The notes under the pieces were generated by a model. The model saw only the letters and a program-made list of their open reading frames with translations. It was not told the origin of the DNA and did not search any database. Source: Paenibacillus tianmuensis (GTDB lineage: Bacteria; Bacillota; Bacilli; Paenibacillales; NBRC-103111). From it: a stretch of 64,000 bases of DNA. This document shows positions 2,393 through 35,900 of this stretch, piece after piece. The stretch's first letter is position 1; the number at the start of each line of letters is the position of its first letter. The stretch covers positions 62,001-126,000 of the forward strand of contig NZ_FMTT01000013.1 of the NCBI RefSeq assembly GCF_900100345.1, read 5' to 3'. Both the position numbers and the translations under genes were made by a program.

Positions 2393-2421
2393 AGCAACCA
2401 ACCTTTCGGGCTTCCCTGTCG

Positions 2422-5643: not shown

Positions 5644-5670
5644 GAGTTTCATCCTTTCGTCCTGGTTTCC

Positions 5671-6831
5671 TTAAGAGCTTCGGCTTCCTCGCTTGACGAG
5701 TTCGTCCGCAATGATCAACCGCTGAATTTCCGACGTTCCGTCTCCGATCTCCGTCAGCTTCGCATCCCGGAAAAATCGCTCCAGCGGCAGGTCTCTCGAA
5801 TAGCCGTATCCACCGAACAGTTGGATCGCGTCCTTCGTCACTTGGGTTGCCACCTCCGAGGCAAACAGCTTGGCCTCCGACGCCTCCTTCGCGTACTTCT
5901 CCCCGCTGTCCTTCATCCGGGCCGCTTTTTTTAGCAGCAGATCGGCGGCGTTGATATTCATCTCCATATTCGCCAGCATATTTTTCACCGACTGAAAATG
6001 GTAAAGATATTGATCGAACTGCTTTCTTTGCTTGACGTAGCCGATACAGTGCTGCTTGGCCTCCTCCGCGATGCCGACGGCAATCGCCGCCATCCCCAGT
6101 CTGGCGCTAACGAGCGTCTGGTGCAGGATGTCCAGACCGAAATTTTTTCGCCCGATAAGGCAAGTCTTAGGAACCTTGACTCCGTCCAGAATCAGCTCGC
6201 CCGTATCGGAGCTTCGCATCCCGAGCTTCCGCTCTTTTTTGCCGGACGTGGACAGGCCCAGCATCCCTTTTTCCAGCAAAAATACGCTGATGCCCAGCAG
6301 CTTCTTCTCGGGCGCCGTCTTGGCGGGCACGATGAAGTAGTCCGCATAGTTGCCGTTCGTCACAAAAATTTTCGCGCCGTCGAGCACATAATGATCGTCC
6401 GCTTCCACCGCCTTCGTCTGCATCGACGACATATCCGACCCGCTGCCGGGCTCTGTGAGCGCGAAGGCGCCGATTTTTTCCCCGGAGAGCATCGGCTGCA
6501 AGTAGCTCGCTTTCTGCTCCTCCGTCCCGAAGGCGCTGACCGGGTTGCAGGTTAAGCTGGTGTGCGCGACGACGGTCATCGCGGTAGAGGCGCAGGCCTT
6601 GGCCAGCTCCTTCACGAAGCCGGTATACGTCGCATAGTCGAGATCCAGGCCTCCGTGCTCCTTCGGATACGGAATGCCCAGCAGACCGAGGCGTCCCATT
6701 TCCTGAATATTTTCCAGCGGAAATTGCTCGTGCTCATCTGTTTCGCTTGCGATAGGCCGAACCTTTCGCTTAATGAACGTTTCGGCCGTATCAAAAACCG
6801 CCTTCCGCACTTCCCCGTATTCCAGTTCCAT
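5671..6831 (-). CDS. Acyl-CoA dehydrogenase-like flavoprotein (386 aa)
   Basis: A full-length acyl-CoA dehydrogenase-family protein: N-terminal helical domain, central beta domain with FALTEPGSGSD (FAD contact), and C-terminal QLFGGYGYSRD. In this family the base that removes the alpha proton is usually Glu in a Y/G-E-G-T motif; here the motif is IGDGTSEIQ, so Asp (about residue 364) takes that place. The alternative Glu position used by isovaleryl-CoA dehydrogenase also appears to be absent. In this operon it probably oxidises an acyl or aminoacyl thioester held on a carrier protein and passes electrons to the EtfB/EtfA pair encoded at the head of the operon. The ATG at 6831 is chosen over the longer frame because it starts four bases after the asnB stop, with GGAG upstream, which implies translational coupling. 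The substrate is not known. Confidence 0.9.
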   Translation of the reverse strand: MELEYGEVRKAVFDTAETFIKRKVRPIASETDEHEQFPLENIQEMGRLGLLGIPYPKEHGGLDLDYATYTGFVKELAKACASTAMTVVAHTSLTCNPVSAFGTEEQKASYLQPMLSGEKIGAFALTEPGSGSDMSSMQTKAVEADDHYVLDGAKIFVTNGNYADYFIVPAKTAPEKKLLGISVFLLEKGMLGLSTSGKKERKLGMRSSDTGELILDGVKVPKTCLIGRKNFGLDILHQTLVSARLGMAAIAVGIAEEAKQHCIGYVKQRKQFDQYLYHFQSVKNMLANMEMNINAADLLLKKAARMKDSGEKYAKEASEAKLFASEVATQVTKDAIQLFGGYGYSRDLPLERFFRDAKLTEIGDGTSEIQRLIIADELVKRGSRSS

Positions 6832-6835
6832 ATCC

Positions 6836-8611: not shown

Positions 8612-8651
8612 TGGGGTTCCCTCCTTTCGGTTCCGTGTGGCGGATCAGAAG

Positions 8652-10478: not shown

Positions 10479-10514
10479 AAGCAGCCTCCGCCCCATAACG
10501 TGAATTGGCCACAC

Positions 10515-11516
10515 TCAGCTCAGCAATTGCTCCTCCACCTGCTCGGCGAGCCGCAGCGCTTTTTCCTCCGGGTCCTCGACGCGCTTCAGCGCCTCTTCCC
10601 GGGTAATGATGCCCTGCCGCACCAGCAAGCTCATTTCAAAATCGTACGGATGAAACCGATGAACCTGCTTGTGCTTGACGATCCCCAGCGAATTCAACCG
10701 ACAATTCGTCGAATTGGGATCGACGTCCTCCGGCTTGGTCCATCCCAGCTCCCGGATCGTACGGTAAATTTCGTCCTCCTGGTACCCGATGATCGGGAAG
10801 GCGTTGATCGTATAAGGGAACGGATTCGTTTTGTATTCGTCCTTATCCAGCATGAGATACGTATACACGTCGTCCCCTACTCGCTCCGCGAGTGGCTTGA
10901 ACAAATGTTTCCGCAGCTCGTACGGAATTTTGTTGTCCTGAAAAATAATTTCGTTCTCGGATTGAATCAATTGCCCCGGGCTGTTGCCCAGCATCACCAT
11001 CGGAATTCCTTTTTCGATAGCGACCCGCAAGCACATGTTCGTCACAATGCGGATGCACGAGATGCAGATACCGCTGCCGAATTGCGTCAGATGGGTCGGA
11101 TAAACCTCGAGCGCCGAGCTTTGCAGAAAAATTTGCTTCATCAGGTCGTATCGGGGCCGGACAATCGTATGATCCACATTCAAGCGGTTCAGCACCTTGC
11201 GCATGTTCACAAACGAGTATTCCGACATGAAGCCGTTGTCGAGCGTCACAGCCAGCATGCGAAGCCCGTACTTTTCCTTGAGCGTATGAATCAGGAACGT
11301 GCTGTCCTTCCCTCCGCTGTAGGCAACCAGCGCATCGTACTTCCGGTTCTGCGCCTTGCATTCGCGAATGATTTCATCCAGCTTCGCCTGAAGCTTGGGG
11401 AGCGACGGAACAGGCTGTTTCCCGCTCTGCTTGCTGCAAAAGGAGCAGACGCCTTCGGAATCGAACGAGATTCCGGGGTAGGTTTCGGGCATCACGCATA
11501 AGGTGCACCGTTTCAC
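10515..11516 (-). CDS. PP-loop ATPase, N-acetyl-sugar amidotransferase-like (333 aa)
   Basis: An N-terminal Cys4 motif (C-TLC at residues 4-7, then C-SFC) is followed by the PP-loop YSGGKDST, which binds ATP and activates a carbonyl or carboxylate by adenylation. This arrangement resembles the WbpG/LegG-type amidotransferases that convert an amide to an amidine with ammonia from a separate glutaminase. No glutaminase domain is present here, so the AsnB two genes downstream could be the ammonia source; this is inference. The start is GTG at 11516, preceded by AAAGGGG at 9 bases. Sugar biosynthesis genes are absent around it, so a role in modifying the peptide or one of its building blocks is more likely than in surface polysaccharide. 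The aminomutase is translated 36 bases downstream. Confidence 0.8.
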   Translation of the reverse strand: MKRCTLCVMPETYPGISFDSEGVCSFCSKQSGKQPVPSLPKLQAKLDEIIRECKAQNRKYDALVAYSGGKDSTFLIHTLKEKYGLRMLAVTLDNGFMSEYSFVNMRKVLNRLNVDHTIVRPRYDLMKQIFLQSSALEVYPTHLTQFGSGICISCIRIVTNMCLRVAIEKGIPMVMLGNSPGQLIQSENEIIFQDNKIPYELRKHLFKPLAERVGDDVYTYLMLDKDEYKTNPFPYTINAFPIIGYQEDEIYRTIRELGWTKPEDVDPNSTNCRLNSLGIVKHKQVHRFHPYDFEMSLLVRQGIITREEALKRVEDPEEKALRLAEQVEEQLLS

Positions 11517-11537
11517 GGTTGGGTTCCCCTTTCTGAA

Positions 11538-13076
11538 TTAGCTTAATTCGGACCGGTTGATTTTGAGATTGGCGGTCTTGGGCAGCGGCTCGCGAAATTC
11601 GACGGTGTCGGGAATCATGTAATAAGGCAGAATCGATTTGCAGTAGCGGATGACCTCCTTCTCCGTCAGCGCGAGCCCCAGTTCCGTGACGACCAGCGCC
11701 TTCAAGCTGCTGCCTTTATCCAGATCATGCCTGCCGATCACCGCAGCCTCGATCACGCCGGGCATCCGGCACAAGCGCTCCTCCACTTCCTCCGGACTGA
11801 ACCGGAAGCCTTGCGATTTCAGCATCTTGTCTTTGCGCCCGACAAAATACAGGTAGCCTTCCTCGTCCAGCTTTCCGAGATCGCCGGTATGCAGCGCCCC
11901 GTTCCGGAATACTTCGCTCGTCTTCGCCGGATCGTTCCAATAGCCCGGAGACACGAACGCACCCCGGTGCACGATTTCGCCGATCTCGCCCGGACCGCGC
12001 AAGCGGCCGTCCTCGTCTTCGACGGTAATGTCCACGCCGGGCAAAGGCTTGCCCACCGACGGGATTTTGCGTTCGAACTCTTCGGGAAGCAGGCAAGTGG
12101 AACGAAAAGCTTCCGTTATGCCATACATCATATAAAATTTCGTCTGCGTCAGCAGGGCCTTTAATTTCATTAGCTCATCATGGGGAAAAGGTTCGCCGAT
12201 AATCGAGATGTATCTGAGGTGAGGGTAGTGGTGCTTCGCCAATGGAGAGTGTTTTTGGAGGAGCATCCTCCAAAGCGACGGTACGCCGTGGAAGCCGGTA
12301 ATCTGCTCGCGAAGCATCGTTTCCACGATATCATGAGGGAAAAGGGATTCTTGCAAAACTAAGGTTCCGCCAACATACAGCATGGTGAACAATTGACTGA
12401 GCGCCCCGTCGAACGAAAACGGGGTCACGCTGATCAGCCGGTCGGTGCGCCGGTTTTCCAAAACCTGCGCGGAAGTGATCGTCGCCTCGCTAAAAATACG
12501 ATGCGTCACCACAATGCCCTTCGGCTTTCCGGTGGAGCCGGAGGTGTACAGGATCGCTGCCGGATCGTCTTCATGCACGGCTTCTGTCTGAAGGCTGCCC
12601 GCGAAATCCGCATCCGCGCACTGTAAAATGTCTTCCAGCGCATATTCATGTTCGTACTCCGACCGATCTCTGCGCTGCGCCTGCGCCTGAGATAATCTTA
12701 CGAGCAGCTTGATGCTGCTTTCTTCCAGACCGGCTTGGTTCAGAACGCCGATTCTGCTGTCATGAACGAACAGCGCCCGCATCCCGCAGTTCGCGACAAT
12801 ATGACGAAGCTGCTCGCTTTTGACATGGGGATTGATATGAACGAACAGCGCCCCCATCTTCATCGCCGCCAGGATGACGACGATTTCTTCGATACATTTG
12901 GCCGAAAAGATGCCCAGCCGGTCGCCTTTGCGAATGCCTTGAGAGAGCAGAAATTGCGCGAGCCTGCCAGAAGCCTCGTCGGCTTCCCGAAAGGTCAATC
13001 GCCTGTGCTTCTCGATAAATGCTTCCTTCTGCGGATCGTCTGCCGCAGCCTTGGACAACATGTCGGGAATCAGCAT
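11538..13076 (-). CDS. Stand-alone adenylate-forming ligase (512 aa)
   Basis: A class I adenylate-forming enzyme with YTSGSTGKPKG (A3), FSFDGALSQ (A4), MMYGITEAF (A5), HTGDLGKLDEEG (A7), GRKDKMLKSQGFR (A8) and a C-terminal Lys in TANLKINR (A10). It activates a carboxylic or amino acid as the AMP ester. It is not fused to a carrier protein, but a small carrier protein is encoded only 10 bases upstream, so it most likely loads that protein. Pocket residues read by eye are D-G-S-H-S-I-M-R-S; they match no standard amino-acid code I know, and the Asp235 equivalent is retained, which fits an alpha- or beta-amino acid substrate. AAGG lies 7 bases before the ATG. It could be the activating enzyme for the beta-amino acid made by the aminomutase downstream. 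Confidence 0.88.
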   Translation of the reverse strand: MLIPDMLSKAAADDPQKEAFIEKHRRLTFREADEASGRLAQFLLSQGIRKGDRLGIFSAKCIEEIVVILAAMKMGALFVHINPHVKSEQLRHIVANCGMRALFVHDSRIGVLNQAGLEESSIKLLVRLSQAQAQRRDRSEYEHEYALEDILQCADADFAGSLQTEAVHEDDPAAILYTSGSTGKPKGIVVTHRIFSEATITSAQVLENRRTDRLISVTPFSFDGALSQLFTMLYVGGTLVLQESLFPHDIVETMLREQITGFHGVPSLWRMLLQKHSPLAKHHYPHLRYISIIGEPFPHDELMKLKALLTQTKFYMMYGITEAFRSTCLLPEEFERKIPSVGKPLPGVDITVEDEDGRLRGPGEIGEIVHRGAFVSPGYWNDPAKTSEVFRNGALHTGDLGKLDEEGYLYFVGRKDKMLKSQGFRFSPEEVEERLCRMPGVIEAAVIGRHDLDKGSSLKALVVTELGLALTEKEVIRYCKSILPYYMIPDTVEFREPLPKTANLKINRSELS

Positions 13077-13086
13077 ACGGCTACCT

Positions 13087-13320
13087 TCATGATCTTAACC
13101 GTTCGACCAGCGACACGACACCGTTCATCGTTCCGAGGCTTTCCATGTTCACGTCATCCTCGGAAATGCTCACACGAAACGTTTCTTCCAGAAAAGAAAT
13201 CAGATCCAGCACATCCAGCGAGGTCAGCAAGCCTGCTTCGAACAGATTCAGCGAAGGATCGGTTACTGGCTCGTGGGTCAGCTCGCGAATATAATCGGAA
13301 ATTTGTTCTCGTACCGTCAT
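13087..13320 (-). CDS. Small acyl/peptidyl carrier protein (77 aa)
   Basis: A free-standing carrier protein: four-helix length, acidic, with the phosphopantetheine serine in GLLTSLDVLDL. The residue before the Ser is Thr instead of the usual Asp. The longer frame begins 11 codons earlier, but GGGAGG lies 8 bases before the ATG at 13320, so that start is preferred (MTVREQISDY). The ligase begins 10 bases after its stop, which points to a ligase and carrier pair. Its position between the ETF genes and the ligase suggests that the tethered acyl group is a substrate of the dehydrogenase; this is inference. Confidence 0.85.
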   Translation of the reverse strand: MTVREQISDYIRELTHEPVTDPSLNLFEAGLLTSLDVLDLISFLEETFRVSISEDDVNMESLGTMNGVVSLVERLRS

Positions 13321-13377
13321 CGTCTGCGCCTCCCGCACTTTTCCATTTTCCATAAAGGTACAATCAGGTTTACTTGG

Positions 13378-14640
13378 CTATATCATTGCTTGCTGCTTCT
13401 CCACTTTCAACGTCTCGATAAAAGCCGGAATCACTTCCAACAGATCGCCTACGATCCCGTACGTGGCCAGATCGAAAATAGGCGCATTCGGATCGGAATT
13501 AACCGCGATGATCGTTTCCGCTTCATCCATCCCTACCGTATGCTGGAGCGCCCCGGAAATCCCACAGGCAAAATAGACGCGGGGCTTCACAATGCTTCCG
13601 GTTTGGCCGATCTGATGGGAAGGGTGAATCCAGCCCAGATCCACAGCGGCCCGAGTAGCTCCCACGCTGGCCCCTATCGCATCGGCGAATTCGTAGATGA
13701 GCGGCAGGTTTTCCGCCTTCTTGATCCCCCGCCCTACCGCGACAATCGTATCGGCCTGCAGCAGATTGGCGGGGTCCGCTCTCCCCCTCACAATTTCTAA
13801 AATTTCAAGCACTGTCTTGGACACGCGAATCTGCGAGCTCATATCCCTCACGATGCCGCTAGGGGTACTTACTTTGGCCGCCGATCGGAATACATGCTCC
13901 TTGATCGTCGCCATTTGCGGTCTTTGGTGCGGAATGACGATTTTTGCGACGATGCTTCCCCCGTAAGCGGGTCTCGTGACAACCAGGTGGCCCGTTTCCT
14001 TGTCAAGCGACAAGCTGATACAGTCGGCGCACAATCCGGTATCAAGCCTTGCGGCGACTCTCGGGAAGATCGAACGGCCGCGCCGGGTGCCGCTTCCGAG
14101 CACGATGGCCGGCTTCAGCTCGGCCAGCAGCTCGCTCATGCAGCGGGCTTCCGCATCCTCCGCGTAGGGCTGAAGATTCGGGCTGTCGACCAGCCATACC
14201 TCATCGACGCCCAGCTCCAGCAGCTCGCCGGTTAAATGGCCGATCTCGCTGCCGAGGAGTACAGCCGATACGGGCAGTCCCGTACCTTCGGCCAATTGCC
14301 TCGCGGCCCCGATCACCTCCGGCACCGATGGAACAAGCGCTCCGTCGGCATGCTCCGCATAGACGCAAATGCCGCTAAACGACGCCTCGTTACTCTTAAC
14401 GCCCGATTCGTCGGGGATGGACCAGTCGACCATGGAATCTCTGGGCATAAAGTTATCCGGCAAGGAATCGTCGACGATCGCATCCGCCGGGCATACCGGC
14501 ACGCAGGAGCCGCAAACGACGCACCGATCTTGGTCGACATTCGCCTGACCTTCCAGCAATCTCAAAGCTTCAAATGGACAAAGCTGCACACAGGTTCCGC
14601 ATCCGATGCAATTCGATTGGAGAATGCGAATTTGGCTCAT
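13378..14640 (-). CDS. etfA: Electron transfer flavoprotein alpha subunit with N-terminal ferredoxin
   Basis: The first 60 residues hold two 4Fe-4S motifs, CIGCGTCVQLCPF and CVVCGSCVPVCPA. The ETF alpha domain follows, with the FAD region around GRGIKKAENLPL and GQTGSIVKPRVYFACGISGALQH. It forms the flavin-binding heterodimer with EtfB and carries electrons to or from acyl-CoA dehydrogenases. A ferredoxin domain fused to EtfA is familiar from anaerobic clostridial reductase systems and unusual next to an NRPS. The ATG at 14640 overlaps the EtfB stop (ATGA) and has GGGAG 7 bases upstream; the longer frame is ignored. The likely partner is the dehydrogenase at 5671-6831, the only such enzyme seen in the operon. 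Confidence 0.92.
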   Translation of the reverse strand: MSQIRILQSNCIGCGTCVQLCPFEALRLLEGQANVDQDRCVVCGSCVPVCPADAIVDDSLPDNFMPRDSMVDWSIPDESGVKSNEASFSGICVYAEHADGALVPSVPEVIGAARQLAEGTGLPVSAVLLGSEIGHLTGELLELGVDEVWLVDSPNLQPYAEDAEARCMSELLAELKPAIVLGSGTRRGRSIFPRVAARLDTGLCADCISLSLDKETGHLVVTRPAYGGSIVAKIVIPHQRPQMATIKEHVFRSAAKVSTPSGIVRDMSSQIRVSKTVLEILEIVRGRADPANLLQADTIVAVGRGIKKAENLPLIYEFADAIGASVGATRAAVDLGWIHPSHQIGQTGSIVKPRVYFACGISGALQHTVGMDEAETIIAVNSDPNAPIFDLATYGIVGDLLEVIPAFIETLKVEKQQAMI

Positions 14641-15455
14641 GTGAAAACTCCCGTTCCTTTGTCGTCGCAGGCCCCGATTTTGGATAAAATACGGGCTGCG
14701 CATTGCCGGTTGTCCGCATAGCGGACGATTTCCCCGTTGGCTTTCCTCTCCTTTCCGGCCGGGTGGTAGACGCCGACGACCCGGGTAGGTGATCCGCTTA
14801 GACCGATCCGTCCGGGCTCAATCCCCAAATCGTCCGGACCCCAAACCGTGATTTGCGTGGTCTTTGCCTTCATGAGGCCCAGAACCGAAGGTATCCGCGG
14901 CTGATTGATATGCTTGCGGATGCACAACAGCGCGGGCAAGGGCAGCTTGATCGTGATTTCGCGGTCCTCCAGCTCCCGTTTGACCACCATTTCCCGGTCG
15001 TCATGCACAGAGCAGATTTCGCTTACGTTCGCCACATGAACGATGCCGAGCTGCTCTGCCAAGCTCGGGCCGACTTGGCCGGTCTCCCCGTCAAGCGACT
15101 GTTCGCCGGTCAGTACAAGCTGGAAGCCGCCCAGCTTGCGAATGCCTGCCGCCAGCGTGTACGAAGTGGTCAACGTATCCGCCCCGGCAAAATCCCGGCC
15201 CGACAGCAGTACGATCCGATCGACGCCCAAGGCAGCGATTTCGCGAAGCTGCTCTTGGCATTTTTCCGGTCCCATCGACAGGCACGTCACGGTACCTCCG
15301 TACCGGTCCTTCCATTTCAGCGCTTCTTCCACGGCATAATAATCGTTCGCGTTGTTGACTAACCGGCTCGCTTCCCGGCTTGAATCGCCCGTTTCTTTAC
15401 TTTCGTCCGCCATATCGTGCAGCATCACTTGTTTGACGCAGACTACAATGTTCAC
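14637..15455 (-). CDS. etfB: Electron transfer flavoprotein beta subunit
   Basis: 272 residues, typical EtfB length, starting MNIVVCVKQV and containing LTGEQSLDGETGQVGPSLAEQLG, the AMP/nucleotide-binding segment of the family. It pairs with the EtfA encoded next. The GTG start at 15455 has AAGGAGG 6 bases upstream. It is the first gene of the long operon: the 195 bases upstream hold no gene on this strand, and a terminator for the gene further upstream sits at about 15591-15622. Putting the redox pair first suggests that oxidation or reduction of a carrier-bound unit is central to the pathway. Confidence 0.92.
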   Translation of the reverse strand: MNIVVCVKQVMLHDMADESKETGDSSREASRLVNNANDYYAVEEALKWKDRYGGTVTCLSMGPEKCQEQLREIAALGVDRIVLLSGRDFAGADTLTTSYTLAAGIRKLGGFQLVLTGEQSLDGETGQVGPSLAEQLGIVHVANVSEICSVHDDREMVVKRELEDREITIKLPLPALLCIRKHINQPRIPSVLGLMKAKTTQITVWGPDDLGIEPGRIGLSGSPTRVVGVYHPAGKERKANGEIVRYADNRQCAARILSKIGACDDKGTGVFT

Positions 15456-15590
15456 CGAAAACCTCCTTCCCGAATGCTACAATATCAGGGCCCGTAATTC
15501 ATATTATTATCTACTTTGGGTAATTTTGGTAGTGATGAATTTCACAAATTTTGTTAACATTTTGCAAACGTCATAACCACCGCTCGGCAT
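15456..15590 (-). promoter_or_regulatory. AT-rich 5' region of the etfB-NRPS operon
   Basis: An AT-rich stretch between the etfB start and the terminator of the ferritin-like gene. It must hold the promoter of the left operon if the terminator works. A TAATAT-like -10 candidate is visible near 15500 on the minus strand, but no -35 box at good spacing is convincing. Confidence 0.4.
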
Positions 15591-15622
15591 TAAAAAAGAG
15601 ACTGTCGCCCCGACGACAATCC
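15591..15622 (-). terminator. Intrinsic terminator of the ferritin-like gene
   Basis: On the minus strand GATTGTCG-tcgggg-CGACAGTC can fold (one G-U pair) and is followed by a run of six T. It lies about 30 bases after the stop of the ferritin-like gene. Confidence 0.75.
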
Positions 15623-15650
15623 CCTTGGTTTGTGTTGACTTTCATGATCA

Positions 15651-16205
15651 CTAAGCTTCTTCTCTTTTCACTTTTCGGCTCAAGTCCAGATTCAAAATAT
15701 AGTTGTACTTGTCCGCATGCTTTAATTCATCGGTGAGAATTTCAAACACCATGTCGCGATAGTAGCGGTTCGGCATGCCCGCCCGGATGATGCGGTATCT
15801 CTCCATCGCGCTCAATTCGCCGAAAAACGCCCGCTTCACCCCGTCTATGAAAGACCGGGGCTTCTCGAAAGATACATTCTGCGGCGTTTCAATCACTTGG
15901 CCGGTCAAGTCCCGATAGATCGTTCGAAACATTTTGTTGTGCTTGCGTTCGTCGTCCCGAATGCTGGCGATGATGTTCTTTTCTTCTTGCGACGGGGCAA
16001 CGGAAATTAAGTAGTCATAGAACAACTCGTCTTCCCGCTCGCCCTGGACAGCCTGTTTAATCAGTGGAAGCGCTTCTTGGAGGGTCTTGTAGGTGGGCGG
16101 TTGGGTGTGGTAACCCGTGCCGGAAGCATGAGACATCCCTCCAACAGCTGCAACGGGATATGTGTGGCTTCGCGAAGGATAAGCATAATAAACCGATGGA
16201 TACAC
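15651..16205 (-). CDS. Ferritin-like / rubrerythrin-family protein, YhjR-like (184 aa)
   Basis: The C-terminal 125 residues carry the paired carboxylate motifs of a four-helix diiron protein: EREDELFY, DDERKHNKMF, GELSAMERYR and TDELKHADKYN, spaced as in rubrerythrin-type proteins. The N-terminal 50 residues are rich in Tyr, Pro, Ser and His. Proteins of this shape in bacilli (YhjR) have been linked to spores, but nothing here proves that. The frame can be read from a TTG at 16271, but a GGAGG 7 bases before the GTG at 16205 makes VYPSVYYAYP the better start. It is a single-gene unit ending in its own terminator. The frame stays open upstream towards a small signal-peptide ORF, described separately. 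Confidence 0.85.
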   Translation of the reverse strand: MYPSVYYAYPSRSHTYPVAAVGGMSHASGTGYHTQPPTYKTLQEALPLIKQAVQGEREDELFYDYLISVAPSQEEKNIIASIRDDERKHNKMFRTIYRDLTGQVIETPQNVSFEKPRSFIDGVKRAFFGELSAMERYRIIRAGMPNRYYRDMVFEILTDELKHADKYNYILNLDLSRKVKREEA

Positions 16206-16341
16206 GAGATGACCTCCGTGATGAAAGAATGAACTCTGAGTTAGTGTATGTTTGCCTTCGTAGAAAAGCAACTTGTCATCCCCAAGGACCGCCCTGCCAT
16301 CATAACCGCGTCTCCCCCTTCCCCGACGGTGTTCGTAAATA

Positions 16342-17996: not shown

Positions 17997-19661
17997 TTAA
18001 AGCTGGCGAGTTAATATTGATGATATTACTTGAAGCTGTTCATCAAGCGAGTACGGGTCTTCAAAGGCGAAACGGTATGGATTGATAAAATAAACACGAC
18101 GATTCTTTACAGCAGGGAGGCTTTGCCAAATCCCGCTTTCCGTTAACGTGGAAGGGTCGCCGTAGACGGATATGAAAATATGATCACCTGCATATGCAGG
18201 CAAAGCTGAGAACGGGATTTTAATACTCAACGAAGCTTCATCAAGTTCCCTCCGCTGCAGGGGAGGAGCTTGCAGCTGCAAGGCTTGATAAAGGCTGAAG
18301 CTGCCGTAACCCGCATGCTGGCCCAATACGTACAGCTGCCCATTCAATAGCAGCAAATTCGTTACAAAGTACCCCAACCCGAGCTTACTCACGATTTGTG
18401 CCCGAGTTTGTTCAATTCGCCACTCGTAGTCTTCAATCCATTGCTCTGCCAAATCGGTTTTATTGAGAACGCCGCCTATCAATCGCAGCTTCTCCAAAGG
18501 ACTGGTACTTTGATAAGGAATCAGAAGCGTGGGTGCGATTTGCTCAAGCTGCTGATATTGGTGTTCATTTTGCGTTACAATCAGATCCGGCTGCAGTCCG
18601 GATACACGGGGCAAGCTGATGGGAAAGCCTTTCCCCAGATCGACAATGCCTTGCAAGCTGCTGCTGCTTTTCTCTGCTGCAGCTAACTCTTTTCTTAGCA
18701 TTTCCGTTCGGGCACCTACAGGAATCACGCCAAGCTTCAGCAACTGTCCCATATATTGATCGGCTACAATGCGCTGAGGGCTGGATGCGAGCGTGAAGCT
18801 TCGAATCAATCTCTGCTTGTTCTGTGCATATTGACGGGGCGATTGTCCGACGATCTGCTTGAAGCGGCGATTGAAATAGAACTCATCCCGGTAGCCGACA
18901 GTCTGGGCAATATAGGATAACTGGCCGCCGGCGAGCAGCAGTTTCTTGGCCTCTTGAATTCTCAAATCGGTCAAGTAACCGGACACGCTTCTATTGGTGA
19001 GCTTGCGAAACAGCTCGGTAAACTGTCTACGGCTAAGCCTAGCCTTAGCGGCCAGCTTATCGACTGTAATGTCTTCATGATAAGCCGCATGCATATAGTC
19101 GAGGGCATGTTCGACGGCCTTCTTGCTGTCGTGCTCCTTGGCACGGTGAAAGTTACGTTCTGTAAAAATGAACATCATCCATTCTTGAAAGTGCATGTGA
19201 TTGGCCAATTGCTGCAACGGATCTGAACTCCATCTATTTTTGCAAAGCTGCTCCAGTCCTCTTGAGAGGCGCTGCCAAGGCGCCTTCCATAAATCCTGGT
19301 GAGGCAGGAAAGAACCTGAGCCACCTAAATCGTCCAAATTGTCCCAATCGCCTGTACGCTGCATGGCATAGGAAATGATATAACAGGCAAAAGGGCGTGC
19401 AGTTGTATTGTTTAGTTGAATGTCGGCAGTTGAAACAAGGGAAAGCAGCTCCCCCGGATGCAGATCCGCCTTCATGTCATCTGCTTCAACGTGCAGGCTG
19501 CCCCTAATCATGACGATTAATGTTAAATAATTCAAAGAATATCGAAAGGAATTCATGGTTTGAGGTGAATCTGAATCGAACTGTTCTATATTAAGAAGTG
19601 CAAAGGAAATGGAACGAGGCATGCGCTCCGGCTGCTCCTGCAGTTTGCGCAATTCGATCAT
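17997..19661 (-). CDS. AraC-family regulator with fused siderophore-binding domain (Btr type, 554 aa)
   Basis: Three parts can be seen: an N-terminal sensor-like region (1-170); an AraC DNA-binding domain (about 185-285), with ITVDKLAAKARLSRRQFTELFRK and a second helix pair in ISYIAQTVGYRDEFYFNRRFKQ; and a C-terminal periplasmic-binding-protein-like domain (about 300-550). The last part closely resembles the lipoprotein encoded just upstream (DQYMGQLLKLGV and DPYSLDEQL match DQHMGHLLKLGV and DPYSLEAQL). In Bacillus subtilis, Btr is built this way and activates siderophore uptake on binding ferric bacillibactin. By analogy, this protein should sense the ligand of its neighbour. AAGGAAGG lies 6 bases before the ATG. 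Confidence 0.9.
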   Translation of the reverse strand: MIELRKLQEQPERMPRSISFALLNIEQFDSDSPQTMNSFRYSLNYLTLIVMIRGSLHVEADDMKADLHPGELLSLVSTADIQLNNTTARPFACYIISYAMQRTGDWDNLDDLGGSGSFLPHQDLWKAPWQRLSRGLEQLCKNRWSSDPLQQLANHMHFQEWMMFIFTERNFHRAKEHDSKKAVEHALDYMHAAYHEDITVDKLAAKARLSRRQFTELFRKLTNRSVSGYLTDLRIQEAKKLLLAGGQLSYIAQTVGYRDEFYFNRRFKQIVGQSPRQYAQNKQRLIRSFTLASSPQRIVADQYMGQLLKLGVIPVGARTEMLRKELAAAEKSSSSLQGIVDLGKGFPISLPRVSGLQPDLIVTQNEHQYQQLEQIAPTLLIPYQSTSPLEKLRLIGGVLNKTDLAEQWIEDYEWRIEQTRAQIVSKLGLGYFVTNLLLLNGQLYVLGQHAGYGSFSLYQALQLQAPPLQRRELDEASLSIKIPFSALPAYAGDHIFISVYGDPSTLTESGIWQSLPAVKNRRVYFINPYRFAFEDPYSLDEQLQVISSILTRQL

Positions 19662-19796
19662 AGGCTTCCTTCCTTTCTTTACTTGCTATTGCTGTGGCGC
19701 ACCAATGATCCAATGATACCTAAGAAGCCCGTTGTCCACAAGGTCGTGGAAACAGGCTTGAGAATTTATCTAATGCGAAGGTCTGCCGCGCTTAAG

Positions 19797-20753
19797 CTAA
19801 CGGGCTTTTGTCAGCAGGTTAACGATAATATTAAGCTGTGCTTCCAATGAGTAAGGATCGTCCATTGCGAAAATTTTCGAATCATAGAAATAGACTTGAT
19901 CGTTCATAACGGCCGGAATACTTTTCCAAAAATTACTGTCCAGCAATTCTTTGGCTTTATCCTCGTTCACAACTGTAATGAAAGCATGATCGCCCATGTA
20001 TTCAGGGACAGCTTCAAATGAAAGCTCGGCACTGCCCATCTCTTTATCGCGCAGCGTTTCAGCCTTGTCCGTCGGTTTCAGCTTAAGGTAATCGTAGATC
20101 ATGTACCCGCCATATGCCCCATTGGGACCGAAAACAAACACATTCTTGTCGAAAACGGCCATGACGGATACCGTTTGCCCCTCTTTTAATTTCCCGGAAG
20201 CGGCAATTTTCTGTTGTGCGTCTTTTAATTGGCCCTCAAATTCTTTGATCCACTTATTTGCTTCTGCGGTTTTGTCGAATAGCTCGGCAATTTTGAGCAG
20301 CTTGTCCATTGGTGTCGTATAGCTTTTGGACCAGTAAGGGATTCGGACCGTAGGTGCGATTTTACTATAAGACTCATGGTTATTTGGGAGTGCGCTAATG
20401 ATCAGGTCAGGCTCCAGCGAGGCAAGTTTCTCCAAATTAAGTGGAAATCCTCCCAAATTCTCAATCCCTTCTAATGCATCCCTCTCCAGGTTCGCGTATG
20501 GAATCCAGGCTTCCTTAAGCATATTCTCGCGAACGGCAATTGGTTTAACGCCCAGCTTTAGCAGGTGGCCCATATGCTGATCTGAGGCAACCCGCAGAGG
20601 CTGAACGGGAACCTCCGTCACGCCGGCTTCATGCTCAAAGGCACGTGTGGGCTGGATGGAATTGTTGGTTTGCTTGCTGCAGGCGGCTAGCAGTAATACA
20701 ATCACGATGGTTAGCAGGCATAGCTTTGCGGAAACGGTTTGGCTCCTTAACAA
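19797..20753 (-). CDS. Iron-siderophore ABC transporter substrate-binding lipoprotein
   Basis: 318 residues starting with a signal sequence and lipobox LLLAAC (Cys25), then a FecB/FhuD-type two-lobe binding protein: NLGGFPLNLEKLASLEPDLII is the usual first-lobe stretch. It should sit outside the membrane and hand a ferric siderophore to a permease. No permease or ATPase gene is next to it, so it must use one encoded elsewhere. The TTG start at 20753 has AAAGGGG 8 bases upstream; an ATG nearby is out of frame. A Fur box lies about 45 bases upstream, so iron should repress it. The Btr-like regulator follows on the same strand after 135 bases. Confidence 0.9.
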   Translation of the reverse strand: MLRSQTVSAKLCLLTIVIVLLLAACSKQTNNSIQPTRAFEHEAGVTEVPVQPLRVASDQHMGHLLKLGVKPIAVRENMLKEAWIPYANLERDALEGIENLGGFPLNLEKLASLEPDLIISALPNNHESYSKIAPTVRIPYWSKSYTTPMDKLLKIAELFDKTAEANKWIKEFEGQLKDAQQKIAASGKLKEGQTVSVMAVFDKNVFVFGPNGAYGGYMIYDYLKLKPTDKAETLRDKEMGSAELSFEAVPEYMGDHAFITVVNEDKAKELLDSNFWKSIPAVMNDQVYFYDSKIFAMDDPYSLEAQLNIIVNLLTKAR

Positions 20754-20811: not shown

Positions 20812-20877
20812 TTTATTATGGGGGTATGAAGATGTGGTCACAATGGAAATCCAGGCGGTTTTTTTATACTTTTTAGC

Positions 20878-20915
20878 GCCCTCTTGTTTCGCCCAAAAGG
20901 CTTAAACAAGAGGGC
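20878..20915 (-). terminator. Strong hairpin after the lipopeptide synthase gene
   Basis: A perfect 12-base inverted repeat, GCCCTCTTGTTT / AAACAAGAGGGC, with a 14-base loop starts 6 bases after the synthase stop. The minus strand lacks a clean T-run after it (the plus strand has TTT), so its strength as a terminator is uncertain. It separates the synthase from the Fur-controlled genes. Confidence 0.6.
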
Positions 20916-20921
20916 TTTCCG

Positions 20922-23900
20922 TTAGCGTACGGAGTCCGCTGCGAGAGTTTTATCCCGAACGATGTCTTGCAAGACGAGCCGGATCGCATGGACATTATGC
21001 TCAATATTGGCTGGTTCAAAAATGTCAAGGTGACCGCCAATCAGCGCGTACTCCACGACCTCTTCTGTCGTCGCCTCGTTCCAATCCTCGGCTCTGGCAG
21101 CTTCCATTTCCGTAATGAAAGCGTGCAGGTTGGCCCGAACCGCTCCGTCATTGATCAATTGACCGCTGTATGTGCCATATGCCAAAATTTTGCTCCTGGC
21201 CTTTTCCCAGTCGGCCCGATTGGCCAAAAAGGACGCGTTCCGTTCGGAGACGATTTCGAGCATGGCATCGACTCCCCGTTCCAGTTCTTCGCCGGAAAGT
21301 TTCTTCGTCCCATCCCGTCTATCGGCATCAAGCAACAAAATATCCGATACCGCATATCCCCTGCGCTCCATCGTCTTGGCGACCTGATAGGCTAAACTGC
21401 CGCCGAGCGAGTAGCCTAACAGCACATAAGGCGCTTCGCGCTGAACGCTCACAATCGCATCGACGTACCGGTTTAACAGCTCCTCCTCATCGCGCCACCC
21501 TTCGATGAAATCGAATGCGTAGACGACATATTGATCCTCCAGCATCCTGGCCATTTCGTTATACACAAGCCCGTAGCCTGCTGAGGGAGGGAAGCAGAAG
21601 ACGTTCATCCGTCCCCGCTCGTTCAGCTTCATCGGCCCGTCGCCGTCATCCTGGACTTGCCCGGAAGAGAGCAGCGCCGCCATTTCTTCAATCGTCGGCG
21701 AGGCAATGACGGCACGCAGAGACAGCTCTGCCCCCATGACGGTGTTGACCTTTTCGGTCAACTGCATCGCTTTGATCGAATGACCGCCAAGCTCGAAGAA
21801 ACGATTCCTCACTCCGATGCGCGGAGCTCCTAACACCTCTTGCCACAGCGCCGCCAGCTTCGCTTCAACCGGCGTTCGCGGCGCCACGTACTCCGCTAAA
21901 GCGTTCGCGGCATCTTCCGTAGAAGATGAATGCACGATCGCTCCTTGCAGCAGCTCAGCTTCCGTACCAACCAAGCCCGCCAGGCACTGCTCCTCTTCGG
22001 CGGGGGACAGCAGCTGAAGCTCCTGCACCCGAACGTCCGGATTCGCCGCGAGTTGTTTCAAGATCCGCATCCAGTGCCCTTGCAGGCGTTCCATCACTTC
22101 GCGTTCATATACCTGGGCGTTGTAATCGAATCGGATGCGCATGTCATTGCCCGGCTGCATGATGACAGTCAGATCATAGCTCGTCTGTCCCTCGGTCCGG
22201 AACCCGCTCATTTCCAGCCCTGCCGCCTTTGCCGCCGCTTCGGCCGCGACCGAAGACGGGCTATCGGTTTCGAATACGAGAATGTGGTTAATTAGCTGCT
22301 GTTTTGGAGCGCTAAGCGCTTGGATTTCATACAGCGGATGCATAGCGTGCTTTTCGGATGACAACGCCTGCTCCTGAACGCTTCGCATGACGTCTGCCAC
22401 CGTTGCCCCGGCCCCGCTGCGGATACGGACCGGGATCGTATTGCTGCGCACCCCGATCATCGTTTCCATGCCCGGCACAAGCGCCGGTCTGACGGGCACG
22501 ACGGTTCCAAATACAACGTCGTCCGTGCCGTTATAGGCTTGCAGCAGCAGTCCCCACGCCGTTTGGAGCAGCGTATTTACCGTCACCTGATGCTGCTTTG
22601 CCGTATTGCGCAGTTCCCGGGTCAGCCGTTTTCCCAAGCTGCTTGTTAGCCGCTCGGCCGCACACCCTGCCCCTTGCTGTCCTTGGGCCTGAACCCGCGG
22701 CGGCACGGCTTGATGGCGGTAGCCCGCCAAATAATGGCTCCAGTAAGCGGATGCCGCGGCAAGATCCTGCCCCTCCAGCCATTCGATATACCGCCTGTAT
22801 GGCTTGACCGCGCCCAGTTCCGGCCGGGCTTGCTTCCGGTAGGCGGAGTACACCGCGAACACCTCTTCGATGATCCGCCCCGTATCCCGGCCATCCATCA
22901 CGATCTGATGGAAGCTCCACAAGAAACGGTACGTTTCGTCGCCGGTTCGCAGAATCGACACGCGCAGCAACGCTTCTTCGCTTAGCTCGAAGCCGCGGAG
23001 CTTGTCTGTCTTCGTAAGCGCACGGATATGCGCCTCTTGCTCGCTTTCCTTCCACCCCCTCACGTCTTCATAAACAAAGCCGGCCGGTTTGTTGCGGTAC
23101 ACCACCTGCAAAGGTTGACCGTTCCATCCGCTATAGAAGTTCGTCCGCAGCGCGTCATGACGCTGCACCACGACGTCCAAACTTTGCTTGAACGCTCTGA
23201 TGTCCAAGCTTCCGCACAAGGTAAACGCCGTTTGTTCGAAGTATGCTTCCGATTCCGGGTTCAGCAGTCGGTGGTACAGCATCCCTTGCTGCAAGGGCGT
23301 TAACGCGTACACGCTTTCGATCTCACCGATGCGCCGCAGCCGTTCCGTCACGGCAAGTCCTTTGAAAACGACGTCGCTTGGCGTCAACTCCGGCCTCTCT
23401 TTTGCCACGCAGTGCGCGATGATGTCCTGAAGGCTGGCATGTAGCAACCCAGCCAGCCGCTCCATCGTTTCCCGCCGGTACTGCTTGCCGCTGTAGCTGA
23501 CCGTAAGCGCCAGTTCTCCGCCTGCGATACTGCCGCTAATATCCAGCGCATGGGACCTTTCGGTTTGCCCGCTAATCTCCGAGCCGCATGCAAAAGGCGA
23601 TACTTGCAGCGCATTTTGAGTTAAATCTTGATCGAACTGGCCCAAATAGTTAAAGCTGATTTCCGGCTTTGCTGCGTAGCGGGCGTCCTCGGACGCTTCG
23701 GACAAGTATTTCAGTATGCCGTAGCCGATTCCTTTGTTCGGAATTTGTCGCAAGCTGTCTTTCACCCGTTTGATCCGGTAAGCGAGCGTATCGGAATCGC
23801 CCGGACCGCCGCCTGCTCCCATCTCCAGCACCACAGGATACTCGCTCGTAAACCAGCCGACGGTGCGCGCGATGTCGATATCCGGCAGGACGGCCTCTCT

Positions 23901-26900
23901 TCCGTGTCCTTCCAGACCGACCCATACCCGCTCGATTCCCGTCCAACGGTACACCGCCATGCCCAGCGCGGTCAGCAGCAGGTCGTTGATGTCAGTGTTG
24001 TAGGCATGGTGCGCCTGCTTCAGCAGCTGCTCCGTTTCCTCCCGCGTCCACTGCACCGTCACCGTTTTGCTGTCCCGCATGAGCCCGTATGCTTGCTCCT
24101 GCCCGGCTTGTTCAACATCTCGGGGGAGCGGCTTGCTTTCAGACTGTTCGAGCTGCTGCCAATACGCCCGCTCCGCCTCCAACGCCGGAATGTTCGCATA
24201 ACCCGCGAGCTGCTCCGCCCACGTCTGGAACGCATCCGTCTTGTCCGGAAGCCGGATCGCCTGTCCGCTTACGGCTTGCTCGTAGCCGTAGGCCAAATCT
24301 TCAAGCAAAATGCGCCATGATACCCCGTCAACGACCAGATGGTGAATCGCGATCAGCAGATGGTCCCCATCCGCGCAGCGGAACAGCCCCAGCTTGATAA
24401 GCGGCCCCGTACTGAGCTCGATGCTACTCTGGATCTCATTCGCTTTTGCTTCAATCGCTTGCGCGACGTTGTCGGCTGCCTTCTGGAAGTCCATGACTTC
24501 TAAAGTGTACAGCTCGCCTTCGTCGATGCCGCGAATCCAGGCCGCATAACCGCCTTCCGTCTGTCGAAATACCGTGCGCAGCGCGTCATGATGCTCCGCC
24601 AGTTTCCGCACCGCCTTCCGAAGCGCCGCTTCATCGTAGCCTTGCTCCCGGTACAGCATAACGGCTTGGTTATAGTGGTGCGGCGCAGCATTGTTTTGCC
24701 GGAAAAACCATGCTTGAATCGGTGTCAGCTTCGCCCAGCCCTTCACTTCCCCTTGGTCCGCCATACGGGTAATCGGCTTGACATGCGCGCTCAGCTCCGC
24801 AATCGCAGGGTAAGCAAACAAATGTCTCATTTCCACCTTGTACCCGGCTTGATGCAGCTTCGCCGAAACTTGAATCGCTTTGATCGAGTCGCCTCCCAGC
24901 GCAAAGAAGCGATCATTCACGCCGACCTTCTCGATCCCGAGTACCGTCTGCCAGACGGAAGCCAGCGCTTGCTCCACGGCCGTGCATGGAGCGACATAGT
25001 CCGTGTCCGCAGCCATGCTTTCCTTCGGAGCAGGAAGCGCTTTGCGGTCTACCTTCCCGTTTGGCGTCAGCGGCAGCTGCGGAAGGGGCACGAAATAGGA
25101 TGGAATCATGTACTCGGGCAGCGTTTGCGACAACGCCTTCCGTAGTTCGCCTATCGCCAGCTCGCGATCCGACACCACATACGCGCACAGCTGCTTTTGT
25201 CCGGTTTCGTCCTCCCGTGCGATGACAACTGCTTCCTGCACGGATTCCGTTTTCAGCAGCTGCACTTCCACCTCGCCCAGCTCGATCCGGTAGCCGCGGA
25301 TTTTCACCTGATCGTCGAGCCGCCCCAAATATTCGATGTTGCCATCCGGCAGCCATCTCGCCGCATCGCCCGTCCGGTACATCCGCCTGCCCGGCTCGAA
25401 CGGGTCATATACAAATTTCTCCGCGGTCAGCTCTGGACGGTTCAGGTACCCCCGCGCCACCCCGCGTCCGCCGATATACAACTCGCCCGGCACACCAGCC
25501 GGCTGTAGCGCCATGGCTGCGCTTAAAATATACATTCTCACGCCCGCGTATGGCTTGCCGATCGGCAAACTCCGGTATTCATACGGATATGGATGCGATC
25601 CGACGTCCTCCGTCTGCTGAACATAATAACTTGAATCGACGCACGCTTCCGTTACCCCGTAGCTGTTTACGATCCGCATCGATGCACCGAACCGGTCGTT
25701 TAATTGCTGAAAATCGCCTACCGGACATTGATCCGAGCCGACAATGAGCGTTTTCAGGAAGCCGATATCCCGCCCGTGCTCATACACGTCATTCATCAGC
25801 GGAATGACAAGCGCCGGGGTCGCATCGAACATCGTGACGCGGTGCTGCTGCAGCAGCCCGTAAATCGCCTCCGGGTCGTGCCGAGCGTAGCTTGGGCATA
25901 CGATGAGCTGGCCGCCATTCAGCAGTGACCGCACGATATCGGCCGTAAACACGTCGAATGAAAAGCTTGCCCACTGCAATAGCCGTACCGGTTCCTCCCG
26001 CAGCCGATACTCCTGCTTCCATGCTTCGGACAAAGCGATGACCTGCCGGTGCTCGATCATCACGCCCTTCGGTTTCCCCGTCGTTCCCGACGTATAGATG
26101 ACGTAGGCCAGATGATGCGGCTGCGCTGTGGGCACCAGGTTTGTTCCGTCGGCATCATAGGCTTCGGAAGCATCCAGAAACAACACTTTCTCCGCGGCAT
26201 CCGCCGCACGTTCCTGCAAGCGGCGATGCGTTAGCAGCAGCTGTGCCCCCGAATCGTCCAGCATGTAGCGAACCCGCTCTTCGGGGTAGTCCGGATCGAT
26301 CGGCACATAAGCGGCTCCCGCCTTCAAAATCCCGAACATCCCGATGGCCATCGCAAGCGAGCGCTCGGCCATGATGCCGACGGTCTGGTCCGGCTGCACC
26401 CCTTTGGCCCGCAAGGTGCGCGCAAGCCGATTCGCCTGCTCGTTCAGCTCGCGGTAAGTGAGCCGCTCGTCCTCGCAAATGACCGCCACTTGATCCGGCG
26501 TCCGCTCCGCCTCTTCCTCCAACAGCTGATGGATCGTCTTCTCCTGCCAGTCGCAAGATACGGAGCCGACTCCGCTATCGTCGGGTGGGCCCGTTAGCAG
26601 CGCCTTTTCCTCCGGCGTGACGATCTCGAAAGACGACAGCTTCGCCTCAGGAGCCGCCAAAATACCGTCGATGAGCTGCATGAAGTGACCGGCCATTCTC
26701 CGGACCGTATCCACGCTGTACAGCGAGCTAGCGTATTCGATGCTGCTCGTAAGCGTCCCTGCCTCATCTACCGTTATTTGGAAGCTAAGGTCGAACTTCG
26801 CCGTCTTCGACTCGATTTCATATGGCTTGAGTTCCAACCCATGTACGGTATGTTGTTCCGCCACCCCATGCTGCATGTCAAACATCGTGTCGAACAGCGC

Positions 26901-32900: not shown

Positions 32901-35900
32901 AACGCGCTGAAGCTGCCGCTTTTCCGCTTCCGTCAGCATATCGATATCGGAGAGCCGCAGTTCTTGACAATTAATGACGCCCTCCAGCACGCGGACGTAA
33001 TGCTCCGCCATCCGCCGGATCGTTTCCGGCTTGAACAGCTTCGTCGCATATTCCCAGGTGCAGGAAAGTCCTGCTTTGTCCGCCGTCACGCTTAAGGAGA
33101 AGTCAAATTTCGACACGCCGGGGTTGAACTCTTCCGATTCGAACGTCAGACCGCCGGCTTCGAGCGTGTGCACCGCTTCATTTTGCAGCATAAACATCGT
33201 GTCGAAAATCGGGTTGCGGCTCAAATCCCGCACGAATCCGAGCTTCTCCGTCAGCTCGTCAAACGGATAATCCTGATGCTCGAAGGCGAGCAGCTCCTGC
33301 CGCTTGACGTCCTGTAAAAATTCACCAAACGTTTGTTCTCGTTTCGGTCGATTCCGCATGGCGAGCGTACCGACGAACATCCCGATCACGGCTTCCGTGT
33401 CCGCATGTCTTCTGCCGGATACCGGCGTTCCGACGATGATATCGTCTTGTCCCGTATAGTTGGCGAGCAGGACACTGTACGCCGCCAGCAGCACCATATA
33501 CAGCGTCGTTCCCGACTCCTGCGCCAGCTTGTACAGCGATGCCGTCAGCCCGGGGTCCAGCTTCAGAGAAAAGGTGTCTCCTTCAAAGCTTTGCAACTGC
33601 GGGCGCGGATAATCGGTCGGCATGTTCAGCACCGGAAGCTCGCCGGCAAGCTCGCTTAACCAATACGTTTCCTGCTGCTCAAAAGCGCCCTCGGCGATCC
33701 GGTTCTGCTGCCAGACGGCATAGTCTTTGTAATGCACGTTCCTTGGCGCCAACTGCCTTCCCTGATACGTTTGAAGCAGCTCGTCCAGCAGCACGGCCAT
33801 CGAAAATCCGTCAGCCACGGCATGATGCATATCGACCAAAAGCGTAAAGCTGTCAGCTGCCAATTGCAGCAGCTTGGCGCGGAACAGCGGAGCCAGGCCG
33901 AGATCGAACGGTCGGACAAACCGCGCTCGCGCTTCATCCGCCTCTTCTTCGCTAATCCGTGTCACCTCGACGTTCAGCACAGCGTCCGGGCTAATTTTCT
34001 GAACGATCTCGCCCTCCTCCAGCGCAAAATAAGTGCGCAGCGACTCATGCCTCCCGAATACGTGCCGGAGCGCCTCGATCAAACGCGCCGTATCCAGCTC
34101 CCCTTCGATCTTAAGCTGCCCGGATATGTTATATGTCGTGCTGTCGCCTTGCTGCTGCAGCACGTACATGCGCTTTTGCGAAGACGACGCAGGGTACGCC
34201 TCCCGGCGATCCACCGGCACAATCGGCGTGTAGTCGCCCTTTTCCCCGCCCCGGATGTATTGGGCCAGCTCGTCTATCGTTTGAAGCTCGAACAAGTGAG
34301 CTAGCGGAATTTGTACATGGAATTCTTTATTCACTCTGGACAAAATCACCGTTGCTTTCAGGGAGTCGCCGCCTAGCTGGAAAAAGTTGTCGCGACGGCC
34401 CACGTTCGCCGCCCCAAGCACTTCCTTCCAGATGCGGACCAGCGTCTCCTCCGTAGCGTCTCCGCCGTGAACATCGGGGGCTGCGGTGAAGCCGCCTCCT
34501 TCCCCGGGCTCCGGCAGCTGCGACCAGTCCGGCTCTCCGCTTGGCATAAGCGGGAGGCTCGCCATCTTGACCACGTAGCGGGGCTGCGTGTAATCCGGGA
34601 GCGCTGCGCTCATCGCTTGCTTGAGCTCGGACTCCTCCCAAGGGTGCGATAGATCGGCAACGATGTATGCGGTCAAATCGGCAGTGGTGTCCGTATCTGC
34701 TTCGGAGCGAACGGTGAAGGCGCAAGTTTGAAGACCGAATGTACGACGTACGTGCTCCTCCAGCTGCTGGAGGTTGACTTGATGTCCGCGAAGCCGGACA
34801 AAACGGGACGTTTTCCCGACAGGCGTCAGCTTTCCGTCTTCCGCACAATGCACCCATTCCCCGGTGCGAAGAAAGGAGTCCCGGGAGTTCCGGGAATTCC
34901 CATTCTTAGGCCGCACGATATACAGCTCCCCCATCGTTTCTGACGGAACCGGCTGAAGGTATGTATCCAGCACGCAGGGATAGGTGCCTTCCGCATCGGC
35001 AAGGGCGGCCCACGCCGCCCATTTTTGCGCGATTTCTCCGGCGCTCAGTAAGGCAAGCCCAGAGAGGCGCAGCGTCTGCTCCTGCCCGATCGCAAGCAGC
35101 AAATGCACATAGTACCGCGCCCATATCCGGATCGTTTCGGCCGGGAACAAATCGGCGCTGTAATCGAAATTGAGCCGCAGCTCGCTTCCGATCTCGATCG
35201 CATTCAGGAAAAGCTCGTATTTGCTGTACGAAATCGGGTTCGGCAGCAGCTCCGCATCCAATCCGTGGAAGCGGAGCCTCGGCAGACGGTCCATATTGAA
35301 GACGGTCGTGATCGCCGGCAAATGCCCGAGTCCCCTTTCCGCCAAGGCGGCAAAGCTGTAGGGCTGAAACGGTTCGATCTCGTTCATTCCGTTCTTGACC
35401 GCTTGCGCATATTCGGCAAACGTAAGCTCCGGCTTGACCTCGCTCGCTACCGGCAGCAGATTGACGCAGTTGCCGATGAGCGAGAAAGCCTCCATCTGCG
35501 CTTGTCCGGCCGTCGGTATGCCTACCGTGATCTGCCGCAGCCCGGTCAGCCGGTGCAAAAACAGCTGGAACGCGGACAGCAGCGTCACGAACAAGCTGCT
35601 GCCCTGCCGCATGCTGGCCGCTTTCAACTCCTTCGCAAGCCGGCTGTCCAGCATAACCGTATGCCGGCCTCCGCGGGAGGTCGGCACCGACGTTCCCCGC
35701 CGGAGCGACGGCAGCTCCAGCACCGGAAGCCGTCTGTCGGACAAAGCCGCCCAGTACGCTGCGGCTTCCCGGCTTTCCGGCTGCTCAAGCTTATGCCGCT
35801 GCCAAGCGGCATAGTCCCGGAAAGCGGCCGGGGCAGGGAGCGCCCAGCTCTCCTGTCGTACGAGCGCGGAGTAAATGCGCTCCAGCTCTTGGATGAACAC

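Follow-up and report, generated by a model that had tools for sequence, protein, structure and literature searches.

The window analysed here, a 64,000-nucleotide stretch of the Paenibacillus tianmuensis genome, contains on its minus strand the gene for a hybrid PKS-NRPS synthetase, adjoined by the gene for a trans-acting malonyl transferase. Based on the order of motifs and a reading of the translation, the synthetase has the layout FAAL-ACP-KS-ACP-AMT-C1-(A1 remnant)-T1-C2-A2-T2-C3-A3-T3-C4-A4-T4-E-C5-T5-TE. The names FAAL and AMT come from reading the sequence, with FAAL additionally being an AMP-binding match, and no acyltransferase domain was found after the KS when the synthetase translation was read. 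The FAAL-ACP-KS-ACP-AMT loading part, together with malonyl transferase supplied in trans, is that of the iturin type; the seven-residue peptide and complete modules of that type are not found, there being only three complete A domains beyond the loading part. The features on which the analysis rests are the following.

20922-42362, minus strand: hybrid PKS-NRPS synthetase ORF (7146 aa, TTG start)
42376-43578, minus strand: trans-acting malonyl transferase, adjoining the synthetase (fabD equivalog, 292 bits against a cut-off of 260.9)
35073-36410, minus strand: C1, with HHLIADG intact (35913-35933)
34503-35072, minus strand: A1 remnant, the C-terminal part of an A domain only (Pfam and alignment); A10 lysine replaced by Glu
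34248-34475, minus strand: T1, with LGGDSL intact
25008-26585, minus strand: A4, the last working adenylation domain (AMP-binding match and alignment)
23403-24755, minus strand: E domain after T4, with HHLVVDG intact; D-residue predicted on T4
21987-23318, minus strand: C5, condensation domain of the terminal module with an eroded core (Pfam Condensation, 353 bits)
22890-22910, minus strand: HQIVMDG where HHxxxDG is expected; Gln replaces the catalytic second His in all six orthologues
21894-21986, minus strand: junction at which A5 is missing (31 residues, LSPAEEEQ to EYVAPRT; from alignment, with low confidence in the structure model)
21678-21893, minus strand: T5 carrier domain (PP-binding; LGGHSI serine at 21777-21779)
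20925-21677, minus strand: TE (GYSLGG at 21399-21416, serine at 21408-21410; all six orthologues retain the other two residues, Asp and His, of the presumed triad)

Directly downstream of the synthetase (17997-20753) lie two Peripla_BP_2 genes, one of them fused to an AraC-type domain. We rejected a siderophore role on the strength of these genes because, judged by ORF size and position, they were not seen downstream at the other five loci described below. The window also holds a second cluster (2-16271) comprising two NRPS ORFs together with an acyl-CoA dehydrogenase, an asparagine synthase, a radical SAM protein, an acyl ligase, electron-transfer flavoproteins and a rubrerythrin.

An initial annotation of this DNA had proposed that the terminal module consists of C, T and TE without an adenylation domain, and Pfam bears this out: the last 807 residues contain matches to Condensation (10-453), PP-binding (496-559) and Thioesterase (582-783) and none to AMP-binding. 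Of the parts that make up an NRPS termination module, a TE with its catalytic serine behind a T domain is present (PF00550, PF00975), and the A domain expected between C and T is missing, both by Pfam and as a gap against six related synthetases that end in E-C-A-T-TE. The arrangement is that of the SyrE type, with an A-less C-T-TE at the end of a synthetase; it is not that of the fungal CT type, in which a C fold comes last in place of a TE, as here the TE comes after C5-T5.

LSPAEEEQ (residues 6785-6792), which had been thought to lie within about 40 residues of the linker that follows an A domain, is separated from EYVAPRTPVEAKLAALW (from residue 6824) by 31 residues, and its spacing to EYVAPRTPVEAK in the synthetase translation is 31 residues (our ORF numbering starts at the TTG, a few residues ahead of that used previously). 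In the alignment with the six E-C-A-T-TE relatives, the gap corresponds to the A domain except for some 30 poorly conserved residues. The T domain (LGGHSI) and the TE (GYSLGG) both carry their motifs, as had been noted, and the phosphopantetheine serine of T5 and the GYSLGG of the TE are retained in all six orthologues. The interval to which the terminal module had been assigned, 21770-23290 (residues 6358-6865), leaves the TE, with GYSLGG at 21399-21416, outside.

To what extent this end is shared was assessed at three taxonomic levels. The full 807-residue end occurs in six of 25 genomes of the same genus, the window's own included (E up to 1e-200), and five of the six synthetase genes are open across 7133-7165 codons. 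A5 is absent and the A1 remnant present in all six orthologues. An assembly or sequencing error as the cause of the A-less end was rejected, since the same end is found in six species. Among 104 genomes of the family, a search with T5-TE at 1e-90 recovered only these synthetases and a TE-only remnant in one genome (G016). Among 392 genomes of the order (E up to 1e-75, with no more than 5 candidates scored in each genome), at least 48 further T-TE places were found, and the nine best of the 48 were examined. The initial annotation had suggested looking for an ancestral C-A-T-TE among related synthases; all nine of these nearest relatives have A before T, in the order C-A-T-TE, and six of the nine have the order T-E-C-A-T-TE. 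Four of these six E-C-A-T-TE relatives sit in genomes that also encode an A-less synthetase (two in G005, one in G021 and one in G014). Since the nearest relatives keep A and all six orthologues lack it, an ordinary E-C-A-T-TE end is the likely ancestor, and the sequences indicate that the A domain was lost from such a terminal module. The initial annotation had also allowed that homologues might always have this C-T-TE end with a known function such as release or cyclisation. The orthologues do always end this way, but no release or cyclisation function for such an end was found in the open-licence literature searched.

Two genomes show further changes at this locus. In G004 the synthetase frame breaks in C4 (contig C3, about 202300-202420) to give ORFs of 5162 and 2023 codons, and either decay or sequencing error fits the break. 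In G016, a close sister whose flanks are 95% identical and which retains the second cluster from 8310 onward at 95%, the AT gene and nearly the whole synthetase are gone. What is left is a 272-aa ORF that holds a whole TE with GYSLGG (L037:9495-10313, against window 20877-21747), is only 87% identical in DNA to the window TE, and by eye resembles the G014 type, which suggests that species have exchanged the synthetase among themselves. Exchange is also apparent at A4: the A4 domains of G014 and G004 are 55-56% identical to that of the window and the T4 and E that follow them 84-89%, a replacement that, judged from the sequences, probably alters the residue at position 4.

With A missing as annotated, the loss of A is still not the only loss of module 5, because C5 has also lost its catalytic histidine. 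We compared C5 with 13 reference C domains, all of which follow an E domain: seven from the same genome (assigned by similarity) and six from the nine relatives, with L041, L042 and L046 excluded because no E lies ahead of their C. The second His of HHxxxDG, present in 13/13 references, is Gln in 6/6 orthologues. The window reads HQIVMDGR and the others DQIVIDGR, HQIIIDGR, HQIVLDGR, HQIVLDGR and CQIVIDGR, so that the first motif position is variable (H, D, H, H, H, C) and Gln and DG are invariant; the C domains of the six E-C-A-T-TE relatives read HHI[VI]MDGW. One otherwise normal reference from the same genome (L003, contig C30) has QHILMDG, with the first His replaced and the second kept. 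Of 104 columns that are invariant in the references, C5 has lost 15-21 per species, 13 of them in common to all six; the shared losses include the second His, the W after DG, the G of GRP, the LFI of GLFINT, and the N and P of FENYP. When each reference is omitted in turn and scored against the rest, it loses 0 to 12 columns (up to 12/116). As read from this alignment, the erosion of C5 is moderate in amount yet strikes the catalytic residue, and in all six species C5 is free of stops and frame breaks. An AlphaFold model (15 sequences, mean pLDDT 67), used for fold recognition only, predicts that C5 keeps a C fold near that of the SrfA-C condensation domain (TM by target 0.80-0.83), with an X domain and HtmB2-CT also among the predicted fold matches; the linker at the position of the missing A was poorly predicted.

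Selective constraint was estimated as omega from pooled pairwise counts over the five open genes (ten pairs, which are not independent) with 1000 bootstraps. G004 was excluded because its reading frame is broken, and C4 (0.299) and A4 (0.295) were excluded as controls because the exchange in G014 inflates both. For C5, omega was 0.304 against 0.207 for C1-C3 (higher in 997/1000 bootstraps); for T5, 0.320 against 0.146 for T1-T4 (984/1000); and for the A1 remnant, 0.269 against 0.150 for A2/A3 (990/1000). The TE, at 0.233, is under normal constraint, and omega for C5 exceeds that for E in only 925/1000 bootstraps. C5 and T5 are under weaker yet still purifying constraint, all omegas being far below 1. 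Recent decay of the terminal module was rejected, given omegas well below 1 and a C5 free of stops.

These values bear on whether C5 has acquired a new role. Fungal CT and X domains are C-fold domains in non-elongating roles, and C5 might likewise have been repurposed for chain handling, binding the T4-peptide and T5 and promoting transfer or cyclisation, with Gln and DG in a new active site. C5 would then be a natural non-elongating relay in which His has given way to an invariant Gln and which carries the D-ended peptide from T4 to T5-TE or cyclises it, and an extension module would have become a release module through loss of its A. The invariance of Gln and DG next to a variable preceding residue, the purifying selection (omega 0.30) and the predicted persistence of the C fold would all fit, as would the existence of non-elongating C-fold domains. 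However, invariance of a single residue is weak evidence at 80-84% identity, constraint is below rather than above that of normal C domains, and no new conserved motif was seen in the six orthologues. We regard repurposing as distinctly unlikely, and the relay form of it equally so.

The same data speak to the possibility that the pathway is dying and no product is made. That a single gene has three relaxed parts (C5, T5 and the A1 remnant), that its frame is broken in G004 and that G016 has deleted all but the TE could be taken as signs of this, but five of the six genes are open at 7133-7165 codons, A2, A3, C1-C3 and T1-T4 are strongly conserved (omega 0.12-0.23), and the in-frame exchange of A4 in two species would be a sign of selection on the product. 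We regard a dying pathway as very improbable.

Module 1 offers a comparison within the same protein. The initial annotation had held that this module, too, lacks a working A domain, and Pfam recognises just C and T in it: residues 2430-2705 yield only PP-binding, and in alignment they match no more than the C-terminal portion of an A domain. This remnant of about 190 residues is 81-89% identical in the six genomes even though it is unable to adenylate. With module 5 devoid of an AMP-binding match and module 1 retaining a remnant only, a working A is lacking from two of the five modules, and a one-module-one-residue reading of the synthetase fails, as had been argued; if the product were confirmed, this would caution against peptide predictors that count modules, which would miscount two of the five here. 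Unlike C5 and T5, C1 (omega 0.217) and T1 (0.156) are normally constrained, so the two A-less modules differ. From these sequences module 1 seems to be functional still, using an amino acid supplied from elsewhere or none at all, and module 5 looks vestigial but kept.

We considered whether T5 might be loaded in trans. According to this explanation, T5 would receive an amino acid from an A domain of another module or elsewhere in the genome, or from an unrecognised shuttle, and C5 would form an amide bond with its HQ motif, so that a fifth residue is added. Natural A-less modules are loaded in such a way: syringomycin SyrE ends in C-T-Te and is described as loaded by SyrB1/SyrC (PMC8949500), the T domain of capreomycin CmnI as loaded by CmnA-A1 (PMC12400406), and module 2 of the rotihibin synthetase by RthB, as its authors propose (PMC8552735). 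The T5 serine is kept in 6/6 orthologues. A review further reports that mutation of the second His does not always kill C activity and that streptothricin ORF18, with HQxxxDM, is nevertheless active (PMC11546977). Against loading in trans, every one of the six species has a C5 without the second His and without another 12 core residues, C5 and T5 are less constrained than C1 and T1 of the other A-less module, and a dedicated A-T protein was found neither in the genome nor near the gene at the six loci.

With regard to that search, the genome contains 54 AMP-binding matches, among which no stand-alone A-T protein of the SyrB1 type stood out by ORF size and family name. The named short stand-alone matches are fatty-acid/acetate ligases, a DHB ligase, an acyl-ACP ligase, the acyl-ligase-like protein of the window and a split NRPS module; a 479-aa AMP-binding ORF (L054) received no family name at 1e-100. 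Nor was an A-T gene seen beside the synthetase at any of the six loci, judged by family names in the window and by ORF sizes elsewhere. The acyl-ligase-like protein (11538-13076) is not favoured as a loader of T5: it looks like an acyl-CoA ligase (TIGR03098, with a score under the cut-off), no ORF of its size was noticed in the flanks (up to about 10 kb) of the other five loci, and it persists in G016, where the synthetase is lost. Because the catalytic His of C5 is gone, simple loading of T5 in trans is less likely than was implied by the initial annotation, which had proposed an in vitro test of it, and we consider it on balance rather unlikely.

The explanation we favour, with moderate confidence, is that the terminal module is vestigial and non-elongating and that the chain leaves T4 for the TE, either straight away or by way of T5. 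It builds on the architecture and its conservation, the missing A and missing catalytic His, and the relaxed constraint; from these we infer that module 5 adds no residue and by which route the chain reaches the TE. An ancestral E-C-A-T-TE end would have lost its A, and C5 its catalytic His and part of its conserved core. The chain would be complete at module 4, its final residue loaded by A4 and turned to D by E. With C5 incapable of ordinary condensation and T5 without a cognate A, the finished beta-amino-acyl peptide on T4 would be handed to the TE in one step or via thiol exchange with T5, C5-T5 serving as a spacer or passive relay, and the TE would hydrolyse or cyclise the peptide, cyclisation perhaps involving the beta-amino group, as it does in iturins.

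Several observations support a vestigial module. The TE is normally constrained and has its presumed triad, and no SyrB1-type A-T protein stood out. In reports on the plipastatin synthetase, deletion of A6 gives peptides that skip modules or pass directly to the TE (PMC5984369), and a TE moved forward accepts the peptide of the preceding module (PMC5180189). For myxochromide S, a review gives as the mechanism passage across the idle carrier of the skipped module (PMC4849084). Other observations count against it. Retention of the T5 serine in all six species and purifying selection would exceed the needs of a pure spacer; C domains can be active without the second His (PMC11546977); the C5 frame is open in six species; omega for C5 is above that for E in just 925/1000 bootstraps; and the erosion is moderate.

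Among characterised synthetases, surfactin SrfA-C (2VSQ; C-A-T-TE) is the nearest solved one to C5 in sequence and fold, and it has its A. The start of the synthetase is like that of mycosubtilin and iturin, with an acyl ligase, ACP, KS and aminotransferase and a separate malonyl transferase (PMC3039948). It differs from mycosubtilin, iturin and paenilipoheptin in being one polypeptide with three complete modules, the first and last being A-less. The C-T-TE end matches Paenibacillus tyrfis YSS-72.2.G2 at 86% (339451-361844, contig 02), within a region (288208-391338) that antiSMASH reportedly classes as NRPS/transAT-PKS with 7% similarity to paenilipoheptin (PMC10847853); no characterisation of that cluster beyond the antiSMASH entry was found in the literature searched.

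A-less terminal modules are already known from SyrE, and the kind is not new. SyrE, as described, is alike in that a lipopeptide synthetase ends in a module that has C, T and TE and lacks A (PMC8949500), but a neighbouring A-T protein and a shuttle complete that module, whereas here no A-T protein was found and C5 is without its catalytic His. CmnI and viomycin VioI are alike in having an A-less module whose T is loaded by the A of another module (PMC12400406); that module is separate and internal, and the one here is terminal. No case that combines a lost A with a lost catalytic His and long retention was found in the open-licence literature searched. The normal C1/T1 and relaxed C5/T5 allow two A-less modules to be compared inside one protein. 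A further parallel is engineered plipastatin synthetase (A6 or A7 removed, or TE-translocated), in which, according to the reports, A is taken out of C-A-T with T and TE kept and the chain skips or goes to the TE (PMC5984369, PMC5180189). Those are laboratory constructs; here the arrangement is natural, stable across six species, and accompanied by a decayed C. Engineered A deletion or TE relocation gives low-yield skipping, and nature seems to have arrived at such a change itself and retained it in several species. If the product were confirmed, this synthetase would provide a worked natural example of a chain crossing a dead module to reach its TE.
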